In this document: positions 8,028-11,407 of the stretch, piece after piece
How positions within the stretch are numbered: position 1 is the first letter of the stretch
Layout: each line of letters opens with the position of its first letter
Made by a program: the position numbers and the translations under genes
IMG/VR virus record: IMGVR_UViG_3300032291_001756
Location: 1-20,934 of that record
Strand: one strand, 5' to 3'
Length of the DNA stretch: 20,934 nt
DNA from: a virus
Notes under the pieces: model-generated
What the model was told of the DNA's origin: nothing
Seen by the model: only the letters and a program-made list of their open reading frames with translations
Databases searched by the model: none

Positions 8028-8693
8028 TTAACCCCCGTTATGGGCACACTCTACCACAGGGCAGTACTTTCGGCATAGTCCCGATGGTCTTGGGTTCCAC
8101 ACATTTGTCTCATGCGCCTTTTCCAAGGCGGCGTACTTCATAACCCACGGCTTCCATAGCACGCCCTCGTCAGTGACGGAATAGTCCTGCTTCACGATCT
8201 CGTTGGCGATGGTAAACAGCAGCGCGCCCTTAGCCTTCTTCACCTGCGGGAAGTGCTTAAATACCGACAGGGCCATAAGCTGAAGCTGCCCAACGTCGGC
8301 ATACTTCGAACTCTTACCAGTCTTGTAGTCGATGATGCGAGCCGTATCCCCGTTGATAACCAACAAGTCCACGATACCGCGGAACCACACGTTCTTGGCG
8401 AAGAAGTCGCACGGCTCAAGGTCAGCGGTTAGGCCCATCTTGAGTTCGCAGTGCTTCTCCCCCGGCATGGCAGCGAGCTTCTCCATAGCGGCCTGCATGA
8501 ACGAGAACTGCGGCGGCAGTGGCTTGCCGTCACGAATATATTCTTCGCATGCCTTGTGAAACTCGGTGCCATATCTGGTTGCATCGGTCTCTTGGAATGG
8601 GAACTCTTTGAGCACGTTCACGTGGTAATACTGCTTCGGACACGTCTCAAAAGCCTTCATCCTACTAAAAGACCATGCACCTGCACTGCTCAT
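8028..8693 (-). CDS. PD-(D/E)XK nuclease, RecB/Cas4-like with Fe-S cysteines
   Basis: 221 residues. It begins with the S-x-S-x-x-x-x-F-x-x-C-P motif of the PDDEXK_1 family (Cys18). The nuclease core is visible: His46 in Y-G-T-E-F-H, Asp109 in G-I-V-D-L-L, Asp122 and Lys124 in I-I-D-Y-K-T-G, and Gln136 in G-Q-L-Q-L. Cys207, Cys211 and Cys216 at the C-terminus together with Cys18 match the one-plus-three cysteine pattern that holds a 4Fe-4S cluster in Cas4, AddB and related exonucleases. It probably resects DNA ends during phage recombination or degrades host DNA. No CRISPR genes are nearby, so a Cas4 role in adaptation is not supported. The ATG overlaps the DNA polymerase stop as ATGA, so translation is likely coupled. 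Confidence 0.9.
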   Translation of the reverse strand: MSSAGAWSFSRMKAFETCPKQYYHVNVLKEFPFQETDATRYGTEFHKACEEYIRDGKPLPPQFSFMQAAMEKLAAMPGEKHCELKMGLTADLEPCDFFAKNVWFRGIVDLLVINGDTARIIDYKTGKSSKYADVGQLQLMALSVFKHFPQVKKAKGALLFTIANEIVKQDYSVTDEGVLWKPWVMKYAALEKAHETNVWNPRPSGLCRKYCPVVECAHNGG

Positions 8694-11407
8694 TCCGTCT
8701 CTCCATAATTTTTTCCAATACCTGCTTCACAGTCGACGGGTAGGCCATCGGCCCATGTTGGAACCCAACGCATACACTCTTCGACATAGGCTTTGCAGGT
8801 TTCAGCCTCATCGTCAGGCACACAGCATACAATGCTGTCATGGACTGTCAATACTACGCGGTACTTCTTACTAATTCGCAGCATTTGTTCGCCGATGATA
8901 AGTCTGGCCAGTGCCTGCGTTACGTTCTCGACCACCTTCCCGCCGTAGATACGGGTGCGGCCGATGCGGGTTTTGTAGGAATATTCCATCCCGCCTTTCT
9001 CGTTCTCGGCCTCTTCCAGCTCGTCGTAGCGGATCAGCAGACCATTGGGCAGTATGATGCCGGGGGCGTGTGGGTCTACGCCTAGCACCCCGTCTTTACC
9101 GAACGGCATGGCGTCTCCGCGCACCATGTATCGCAGCATGATACCCGCCTGCTTCCACATGTTAGAGATCATGTCGTTTGTTTCGCGGTAGATACTGATG
9201 ATCTTGGCGGCTTCGTTTTTGGTGATCTCCACCCCAGAGTTCTTGAGGGCCAGCTGAAACTTATCGCCACCCATGCCGTAACCGCAGTTATGCACGATGA
9301 TTGGCCCGGCAGTAGTCGCAACTGTGTATCTGTTCTTCGGCCCGGCGAAGGCGATGTCGTAGGTCATCAAGTTCTGCTTGCAGTGCGGCGACAGTTCGAC
9401 GGTTGGCGTGGTTTTGCAGTTTGGTAGCAAACCGCAGATTGCCCGGCTCATACCCCTTATTATTGTCGATACGGTCGATATCGCGCGTCGGGTCATCCCA
9501 TCCATCCAGTGTGAGCAGATACCGTAGGAACTCTGCGCGATCTGCGCGCCATGAGGCGTGTACAACAATACCTCGCCCCCCATAGTGGTGGTAAGCGGCG
9601 TTAGTTTTGGTGTGGCAGCGCGACAAACACGAAGAAATCCGGTTAAGGAGCCGCTCGCGGTGGGCGTCATCAGGAAGTACGCTGCGGTACTTAAGCCAGC
9701 GTTTTCGATTAGCCGCACGTTTTGCGCACGTGTTGCAACGCGTTGTACGGCCCGCTTTGAGGTTTGCGCGGTCCACCATGCCTTCCCAGCCGCAAGTACA
9801 GCGGACAATGGGATGCCATCCTGATTTAGGTTTTGGCTCCCAACGTAGGATTTCAAGGTCGCCAAACGTAGCGCCGATTGGAAAAGGGAAGGGTTCGTAG
9901 TTACCTCGGACCACTCCCGCCACCCATGTTCCGTTAGTATTTCGTGGTCCGCTGTGGCGGCTACCGCTGCCATACGTATTGTCGGTTTTACCCCCTGCGC
10001 GACCACACCCTGATGTGTTACCCATGCGTCCCCATCCCATACTTTATCCGTAATCGTAACCTGTATAATAGGGATATACCCACGGTCCGTCAAGACTAGG
10101 GTATCCCCAGCGAAACAGCCGAGCACTGTCGTCTTACCGACAAAGCGCTCGCCAGCGGTTATGTCCATCACCCCTTTATTATAGATACGCGACGCCATTA
10201 TCTTATACGGGTCGTACTCCATATCCTCCTTTTTTACCCCTGCGGCTACCTCTGCATTATTTTTTGCAAATATGTCTACAACGTCGTCCTGACCAGCCAG
10301 CCACGCCAGCATACGCGCTTCAATCTGTGCAGAGTCTGCCTCGACGATGCTGTAGCCATCTGGTGCTACGATACACTTCTTGAGTGCCTTGGCGTTAGGG
10401 CCCCGACTAGGGAGGTTCTGCAGATTGATCTTATCATCCCCGCCCCAGCGGCCCGTGTGGGCCGCGTAGTAGCGCACGGGTACAGGCAGTATGCCCCGCC
10501 CCGATATGTCGATGAAGCGCTGTGTGCGGGTCTCCTCTAGCGTGGACTTCACTCCTAGCCGTGCGGCAGCCAGCGTCTGCACCTGTGGGTCATAGTGATC
10601 CAGCAGGTCTTTCATACCCTGATCGGTCTTAGCCAGCGCGTAGGTCATTTTCCCCGTGGTAGGGCTGATCTTCATGGGGCACGGGACGCCCAGATTACCT
10701 AGCAGCGTAGCAAACTTGGGGTTCGACATGAGGTCGGACTTGTCCTCTAGGCCAGCGGACTTGAGCAGGTCTCCCTTCATAAGCTGCGTCTTCGCTAGGT
10801 GCGCTTCTAGACGCTCTCGGTCGAGCCCAAGCGTGGGCTCCGTAAACATACGCAGGGTCAGGTCGATCAGCTTGAGTTCGGACTTAGGGAAGCCCCGTGA
10901 CAGCATGATGTTGAAGATTTCGTAGGTCAGGTCTACGTCATTTATGCAGTACTGGCCGTAGGCCGACAGCTCCTCAAACGAGAAGTCGCTACGCCTCTTG
11001 CCCTTGGCATCAAGCACCTCGTTGCCCTTCTCCCCCACCCCGTAGTTTTGGGCGAGGGTTTTCAGGCTAGCGCTCTTCTCAACCCCGTGGATGGCACGGG
11101 CCATGCAGAGGGTATCAAACAGAACCTTGGGACGGATACCGAACCGCCACGATAGAATTGCACCGTCAAACATCATGTTGTGTGCCAGTACCGCGGAGTT
11201 GGCCCAGTTATACTGGGCCAAGAACTCCTTAGTGCGGCCGTGAGTGCCGCTGAACCATTCGGTGGTGCCCGCGTTGACCTTCACCCCCACCCCAATGACT
11301 TGGAAGCGGGGGTCACGAACATACTCTTCCGTGGTTATCTTGGACAGCGAGTAGTCCTTGTCGTAGTAGGTCTCAAAGTCGACGGTTAGAATATCCATGC
11401 CACTCAC
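8690..11407 (-). CDS. Family A DNA polymerase with 3'-5' exonuclease domain, interrupted by an intein
   Basis: 905 residues as read; 628 after intein removal. The N-terminus is a DnaQ-fold exonuclease: T-V-D-F-E-T (Asp10, Glu12), H-N-x-x-F-D (Asp81) and Y-C-I-N-D-V-D (Tyr153, Asp157). The polymerase part has motif A E-A-D-S-A-Q-I-E (Asp358, Glu363), motif B starting at Arg421/Lys425 and continuing after the intein as G-Y-G (709-711), and motif C V-H-D-S (His856, Asp857). The intein (431-707) cuts motif B, so the enzyme cannot be active before splicing. Coordinates use a GTG that overlaps the upstream stop as GTGA; the ATG three codons later (11398) is equally plausible. The stop overlaps the nuclease gene. 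This is the replicative polymerase of the phage. Confidence 0.95.
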   Translation of the reverse strand: MSGMDILTVDFETYYDKDYSLSKITTEEYVRDPRFQVIGVGVKVNAGTTEWFSGTHGRTKEFLAQYNWANSAVLAHNMMFDGAILSWRFGIRPKVLFDTLCMARAIHGVEKSASLKTLAQNYGVGEKGNEVLDAKGKRRSDFSFEELSAYGQYCINDVDLTYEIFNIMLSRGFPKSELKLIDLTLRMFTEPTLGLDRERLEAHLAKTQLMKGDLLKSAGLEDKSDLMSNPKFATLLGNLGVPCPMKISPTTGKMTYALAKTDQGMKDLLDHYDPQVQTLAAARLGVKSTLEETRTQRFIDISGRGILPVPVRYYAAHTGRWGGDDKINLQNLPSRGPNAKALKKCIVAPDGYSIVEADSAQIEARMLAWLAGQDDVVDIFAKNNAEVAAGVKKEDMEYDPYKIMASRIYNKGVMDITAGERFVGKTTVLGCFAGDTLVLTDRGYIPIIQVTITDKVWDGDAWVTHQGVVAQGVKPTIRMAAVAATADHEILTEHGWREWSEVTTNPSLFQSALRLATLKSYVGSQNLNQDGIPLSAVLAAGKAWWTAQTSKRAVQRVATRAQNVRLIENAGLSTAAYFLMTPTASGSLTGFLRVCRAATPKLTPLTTTMGGEVLLYTPHGAQIAQSSYGICSHWMDGMTRRAISTVSTIIRGMSRAICGLLPNCKTTPTVELSPHCKQNLMTYDIAFAGPKNRYTVATTAGPIIVHNCGYGMGGDKFQLALKNSGVEITKNEAAKIISIYRETNDMISNMWKQAGIMLRYMVRGDAMPFGKDGVLGVDPHAPGIILPNGLLIRYDELEEAENEKGGMEYSYKTRIGRTRIYGGKVVENVTQALARLIIGEQMLRISKKYRVVLTVHDSIVCCVPDDEAETCKAYVEECMRWVPTWADGLPVDCEAGIGKNYGETE
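9288..10040 (-). CDS. HNH homing endonuclease encoded out of frame inside the polymerase intein
   Basis: 250 residues on the same strand as the polymerase but in a different frame (offset 2). A Cys4 zinc ribbon (Cys81, Cys83, Cys102, Cys105) follows a G-A-T-F-G-D-L-E-I-L start that is usual for phage HNH proteins. The endonuclease core is unmistakable: Y-H-H-Y-G-G-R-G-I (150-158), a following Trp, then D-I-D-R-I-D-N-N-K-G-Y-E-P-G-N-L-R-F-A-T (187-206) and Q-N-H-A-N-R-R. A Lys/Arg/Glu-rich helix ends the protein. The core (about 9396-9800) lies between the two Hint halves; the ends overlap Hint coding sequence. A TAA two codons before the ATG blocks read-in, and the TAA stop is made from the last bases of the intein His and Asn codons. 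A strong promoter candidate lies just upstream; the ribosome binding site is weak. Confidence 0.85.
   Translation of the reverse strand: MGWGRMGNTSGCGRAGGKTDNTYGSGSRHSGPRNTNGTWVAGVVRGNYEPFPFPIGATFGDLEILRWEPKPKSGWHPIVRCTCGWEGMVDRANLKAGRTTRCNTCAKRAANRKRWLKYRSVLPDDAHRERLLNRISSCLSRCHTKTNAAYHHYGGRGIVVHASWRADRAEFLRYLLTLDGWDDPTRDIDRIDNNKGYEPGNLRFATKLQNHANRRTVAALQAELDDLRHRLRRAEEQIHSCDYCRANHRA
10065..10093 (-). promoter_or_regulatory. Near-consensus sigma70 promoter inside the intein, upstream of the HNH gene
   Basis: On the minus strand TTGACG (10093-10088), a spacer of exactly 17 bases, and TATTAT (10070-10065) match the bacterial consensus at 10 of 12 positions. The predicted start near 10058 leaves an 18-base leader before the HNH ATG at 10040. 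The same bases encode intein block A residues (L-T at the -35 box, P-I-I at the -10 box), so protein and promoter share sequence. Confidence 0.65.

Follow-up and report, generated by a model that had tools for sequence, protein, structure and literature searches.

A conserved promoter of the sigma70 type, written into the coding sequence of a DNA-polymerase intein, very probably drives the HNH endonuclease gene that is nested out of frame within the same intein. This reading was derived from sequence comparison, with no transcript data at hand and with the host and its sigma factors unknown, and its support comes from consensus-directed synonymous selection among relatives.

Architecture of the Intein and Its Nested HNH Gene

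The element is located on the minus strand of the window, i.e., the whole stretch of 20,934 nucleotides that was analysed, and its coding features are as follows.

8690..11407, minus strand: family A DNA polymerase ORF of 905 aa, interrupted by the intein (ORF; Pfam DNA_pol_A and DNA_pol_A_exo1; PHROG DNA polymerase)
9287..10117, minus strand: intein of 277 aa, from Cys1 to His-Asn and then Cys+1 (block A, TxDH block B and HN-C junction motifs; AlphaFold and Foldseek; empty-site alleles)
9288..10025, minus strand: HNH endonuclease gene as counted from ATG2, 245 aa, -1 frame relative to polymerase and intein (ORF; PHROG HNH endonuclease; conservation of start and Shine-Dalgarno (SD) sequence)
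9393..9878, minus strand: HNH endonuclease core (residues 55-216 of the 250-aa ORF); the intein frame is free of constraint over this stretch
9920..9955, minus strand: intein block B, TADHEILTEHGW, read as the conserved GPRNxxGTW in the HNH frame; synonymous constraint is back sharply at intein codon 56
10038..10040, minus strand: ATG1, the start assumed in the preliminary description; conserved, without SD; several relatives have an in-frame stop soon after it

The polymerase frame is open across its 905 aa, and the insertion carries the intein motifs CFAGDT..., TADH (block B TxxH) and VHN followed by C. AlphaFold modelling assigned the splicing domain to residues 1-87 and 245-277, with a pLDDT of about 90 for the intein ends, and predicted residues 88-244 to be disordered; the top Foldseek matches of the ends are inteins (Ssp DnaB, gp41-1, RecA), so that predicted model and fold search together identify a HINT splicing fold. 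Judged by this model, 9287..10117 is a true intein with a splicing domain, protein splicing itself being inferred. Further, intein-free polymerase alleles were identified in three loci (L074, L075 and L076) whose flanks are 96-97% identical, and this presence and absence of the element between near-identical alleles meets the expectation for a homing endonuclease. As near-identical polymerases without the intein exist, the intein is regarded as mobile and its arrival as probably recent, while cleavage of the empty polymerase allele by the HNH protein is inferred. All three empty alleles code for Ala at the position of the window's Cys+1, and this Cys probably arrived along with the intein.

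Counted from ATG1, the HNH ORF comprises 250 codons (9288-10040, -1 frame) and its product was assigned to PHROG HNH endonuclease families (best 5.5e-31), whereas Pfam and NCBIfam returned no family match for it. Neither a sequence search of the PDB nor a fold search with its model was informative, and the first ~40 residues of the model are of low confidence. The comparison was extended to relatives, defined as loci with an HNH gene out of frame within the same DNA-polymerase intein (approximately 80 divergent ones, as 95% clusters). These were divided by the residue following the block-A isoleucine, which is Glu in group 2 (17 representatives) and any other residue in group 1, the window's own (63 clusters). 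The same nesting in the same frame was found in 120 loci, 72 after 95% clustering, and a further search added more; among them are loci of Salmonella Jerseyvirus, Escherichia and Sodalis Dhillonvirus and Pseudomonas phage MR14. Related inteins with the HNH gene in the opposite (+1) frame were observed at a second polymerase site (L330, L331, L335, L338 and L344), a +1 nesting also being present in the related inteins of L348, L350, L351, L353 and L363; two such inteins occur within one locus in L335, L344 and probably L349.

Nesting and dual coding are demonstrated: all pol-a loci tested have the HNH in the -1 frame of the intein, and the overlapping intein frame of the nested HNHs contains zero stops (63 representatives), whereas in nearly all HNH homologs outside such inteins the corresponding frame is interrupted by several stops. 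Constraint is divided between the two frames, with the intein frame conserved at the ends and the HNH frame in the middle, and in the predicted models folding is divided likewise; constraint on the HNH frame is strong only from intein codon 56 onward. From block B on (9955-9917, minus strand) synonymous constraint is strong in the window, and whether a protein motif or a nucleic-acid signal accounts for it remains unresolved. The HNH stop lies inside the intein in every locus measured, and the TAA used in the window, formed within CAT-AAC, i.e., the codons of the intein's last His-Asn, is found in 20 representatives including the window.

For the HNH start the preliminary description had taken the ATG at 10040, which has to be revised. 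SD-like sequence precedes ATG2 (10025) in 96% of the loci having this codon and ATG1 in 9%, the background being 21%, and it is general at ATG2 and ATG3 (96-100% of the loci carrying them). The SD energy at ATG2 has a median of -6.9 kcal/mol as compared to -2.3 for the background, and ATG1 of the window, with -3.3, is without SD. Given this conserved, SD-backed start and the early in-frame stops behind ATG1 in several relatives, ATG2 is the likelier putative start. Two reservations apply: the SD of ATG2 may be an inherited by-product, since the intein motif WDGxxW helps to create it, and three loci (L204, L223 and L243) must start further down, as they contain stops beyond ATG2.

Putative Promoter Boxes and Synonymous Codon Choice

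The putative promoter comprises the following features, counts referring to group-1 representatives.

10088..10093, minus strand: -35 box TTGACG; Leu codon TTG in 41/48, 6.8 expected
10071..10087, minus strand: spacer of 17 nt with little or no synonymous constraint (synonymous excess ~0 at spacer codons with enough data)
10065..10070, minus strand: -10 box TATTAT; T as third base before the Ile codon in 42/50, 12.3 expected
10026..10058, minus strand: predicted HNH transcript leader, its start near 10058 being inferred; synonymously conserved codons just upstream of ATG1

Minus-strand positions 10093-10065 read TTGACG-GACCGTGGGTATATCCC-TATTAT, as had been stated before. With hexamers near TTGACA and TATAAT (10/12 matches) and 17 nt between them, the site meets the sigma70 consensus and its spacing range of 16-18 nt, and the distance of 24 bases between the -10 box and the ATG is correct for the ATG at 10040. 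Two further statements of the preliminary description hold in part. A score of 10/12 is indeed the highest on the minus strand; it is shared with sites at 14360 (CTGATA-17-TATAAT) and 8851 (TTGACA-16-TATGCT). The same bases were said to encode block A, which is true for the -35 box, overlapping the end of block A (L9-T10), but not for the -10 box, which lies just beyond it (P16-I17-I18). The competing site at 8851-8824 (minus strand, TTGACA-16-TATGCT), located in the polymerase C-terminal region, was rejected, its boxes varying among relatives. Taken alone, the window provides no evidence for a promoter, because its 11 promoter-like sites are fewer than the 13.9 +/- 3.6 expected from shuffled sequence.

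Among relatives, synonymous choice upstream of the HNH start is informative, because the intein codons located there carry no HNH code. Apart from the boxes, synonymous sites of group 1 are close to saturation and most columns upstream of the HNH gene follow the codon-usage expectation; control columns yielded z-scores from -2.1 to +3.8, the upper end stemming from one control Leu column (-2) with some excess (z up to 3.8). At the boxes, synonymous identity amounts to 0.74 for the -35 Leu codon TTG (0.20 expected) and to 0.72 for the codon opening the -10 box (0.27 expected). The consensus base is present at -35 T1 in 55/61 group-1 loci (12.9 expected, z=13.7) and at -10 T1 in 54/63 (14.5 expected, z=12.3), with smaller excesses at -35 G3 (z=6.5), -35 A6 (z=5.6) and -10 A4 (z=6.8), and hence every box base left free by the intein protein is biased toward the sigma70 consensus in this group. 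These z-scores overstate certainty given shared ancestry, the safeguards being the saturation of the other columns and clusters of low identity.

Evaluation against a codon-shuffle null, in which synonymous codons were redrawn per locus from its own usage, gave a corresponding picture. At least 10/12 matches at the same place are found in 33/50 group-1 representatives, 2.0 being expected (maximum 7 in 500 trials), and after clustering to 62% identity in 7/14 (0.5 expected). The top-scoring promoter ahead of the HNH gene has exactly this offset and a spacing of 17 nt in 61/68 loci; the mean score is 9.76 as compared to 7.77 (sd 0.10) under the null. Two loci (L174 and L334) possess a perfect TTGACA-17-TATAAT. 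Inteins with near-identical residues and the HNH gene in the other frame lack the box bias, L344 excepted. Codon-shuffle null, lower-identity clusters and box-less related inteins thus agree in supporting the view that selection acts on the DNA itself, although this remains a deduction from aligned sequences. Comparing synonymous box positions among relatives had been proposed beforehand as a check, and it revealed strong selection on exactly the protein-free bases, beyond the demands of protein coding; the original claim of an intein-embedded promoter driving HNH is supported to this extent, promoter activity being untested.

Synonymous conservation is also seen in the leader, with an excess of 0.25-0.52 at intein codons 22-26 whose cause is unexplained. 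One locus, L314 (733-1080), has lost the HNH core by deletion with the intein frame intact, possibly representing a mini-intein in the making. Group-1 inteins that never carried a nested HNH gene were not found for comparison; the HNH-deleted L314 keeps the boxes.

Loci without Boxes and Alternative Explanations

Relatives with the nested HNH gene that lack the boxes had been named as the refuting case, and such relatives exist: 23 representatives, of which 17 constitute group 2 and six belong to group 1 (L024, L025, L180, L222, L243 and L264). The promoter is hence not universal, and it is not the sole route to expression of nested HNHs. As box-less loci fall mostly into lineages of their own and a strong SD of the GAGGAG type is present at ATG3 in group 2, their existence does not render the promoter unreal where it is conserved. 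A displaced promoter was searched for in group 2 without a clear excess being found (7.76 vs 7.45, sd 0.15). On the HNH tree (63 representatives) the promoter label changes 7 times as compared to 17 with shuffled labels, and since promoters occur on both sides of the midpoint root, losses are suggested, the tree not being truly rooted. Group-2 loci (e.g., L007, L019 and L022) possess another synonymously conserved block at intein codons 0-8, i.e., at the intein start, which reads GGT TGT nTT GCC GAG GGA ACT nnn GTA, is devoid of sigma70 boxes and is unexplained in function.

Box-less loci bear on the assumption that internal initiation at ATG2 or ATG3 of the polymerase message is the sole source of HNH, with the boxes not in use. 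For group 2, which has an SD and no detectable promoter, this route probably applies, the SD-like sequence ahead of both codons is general as described above, and a leaderless version is the published guess for similar hidden HNHs (PMC11855218). As an account of group 1 it is nevertheless unlikely, as it leaves the consensus-directed synonymous selection at both boxes unexplained. Production of the endonuclease through a programmed -1 shift out of the polymerase frame would fit the constant -1 frame of the pol-a loci tested and can be disregarded almost entirely: inspection of the window by eye, from the last HNH-frame stop to the core, showed no slippery heptamer, conservation is seen instead at starts backed by an SD, and a second-site intein uses the +1 frame.

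Two further explanations were weighed. That the boxes are a by-product of coding the intein residues VLT...PII, together with base composition, is reasonable insofar as the box dinucleotides AC, AT and [AG]T are forced by Thr, Ile and Val/Ile and promoter-like sites are not in excess in the window. However, the expectation from each locus's own codons is exceeded many-fold, and group-2 and second-site inteins with very similar residues show no box bias, which makes this reading highly improbable; a chance by-product of coding is ruled out by the codon-shuffle null for the group as a whole. A different DNA signal, e.g., an operator recognised by the HNH protein or a binding site of some factor other than sigma70, is likewise improbable. 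It has a precedent in T4 intron endonucleases, which bind operators overlapping their own promoters (PMC2988022), and leader codons and the different group-2 block are conserved too, but the favoured bases coincide exactly with the sigma70 consensus, their spacing is the correct one, and the homing site is unlike the promoter region. An operator resembling the homing site and overlapping the promoter was rejected on the latter ground (best 12/20, null 12.2).

Proposed Expression Model

According to the preferred reading, a sigma70-type promoter would be embedded in the codons for the N-terminal splicing domain of the intein and would transcribe the HNH homing-endonuclease gene in the -1 frame of the same intein. 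Binding of RNA polymerase by the boxes is inferred, as are the transcription start near 10058 and the timing of expression, and translation would most likely begin at the ATG at 10025. The polymerase message would give rise to the intein-containing polymerase, with the splicing domain coded by the intein's two ends, and the internal message to the endonuclease, coded mainly by the intein middle. As the last two intein codons also contain the end of the HNH gene, promoter, gene and stop would move together with the intein. Independent transcription of HNH leaves room for a share of its translation to come from the polymerase message. In 34/40 loci the SD-ATG2 region is predicted to be freer on the short transcript than on that of the polymerase, as compared to 60% at random positions; by analogy, this gives weak support to a scheme such as the delayed translation of T4 I-TevI (PMC2988022). 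With somewhat better than even confidence it is suggested that this class of phage inteins constitutes a three-layer unit of (i) a splicing domain, (ii) an out-of-frame homing endonuclease and (iii) the endonuclease's own promoter, kept by codon choice within intein motifs, whereby the endonuclease may be expressed at a different time from the host gene, its start site being freed only on the short transcript, as in T4 I-TevI.

Relation to Known Systems

The element combines known kinds, i.e., an intein with a homing endonuclease, a hidden HNH and an internally promoted endonuclease gene, in a new form. Among the closest known systems is the ShiLan domain of mycobacteriophage DNA methylases, which was reported in 2025 to hide an HNH out of frame (PMC11855218). 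In both, the HNH occupies an alternative frame of an insertion that is kept open in the host frame, its stop TAA lies within the last bases of the insertion, and the distribution is sporadic. ShiLan, however, has no splicing domain and no RBS was found for it, whereas the window harbours a true intein with conserved promoter and SD; a defining property of ShiLan, the absence of a detectable splicing domain in the host frame, is hence not given, and the window element shares the kind of dual coding yet is a different element. T4 intron endonucleases, which have internal promoters (PMC2988022), resemble it as endonuclease genes in self-splicing elements with their own internal promoter. The T4 elements are group I introns and are removed at the RNA level, whereas the promoter described here overlaps intein protein-coding sequence and resembles that of host sigma70 rather than a T4 middle or late promoter. 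In the brucellaphage large-terminase gene an HNH out of frame in a phage gene was described as intein-encoded (PMC4422536); the host gene is a different one, and in the available part of that report no test for a splicing domain is given and the way in which the HNH is expressed is not stated. A literature search yielded no account of a promoter within the coding sequence of an intein, most subscription journals not being covered.

The authors of the ShiLan report leave the route of HNH expression and translation open and mention no promoter (PMC11855218), so that expression of out-of-frame HNHs in phage insertions was an open question in 2025. For one large group a concrete and testable answer is now suggested, namely a promoter written in splicing-domain codons, by which a mobile element would possess its own transcription unit and leave the protein to be spliced undisturbed. 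The arrangement occurs in cultured phages of E. coli and Salmonella, which makes the prediction accessible to experiment. The same nesting and boxes as in the window were seen in the genomes of Jerseyvirus Ent1 and SE2, Escherichia phage Pubbukkers, Sodalis phage SO-1 and Pseudomonas phage MR14, the boxes of Pubbukkers reading TTGACC-17-TATTAT. In the records of these five phages a promoter is annotated here in none and the HNH only in that of SO-1 (L156, 2809-3567), where it is labelled a type I self-splicing intron although it resides inside an intein that is open in frame, a probable misannotation.
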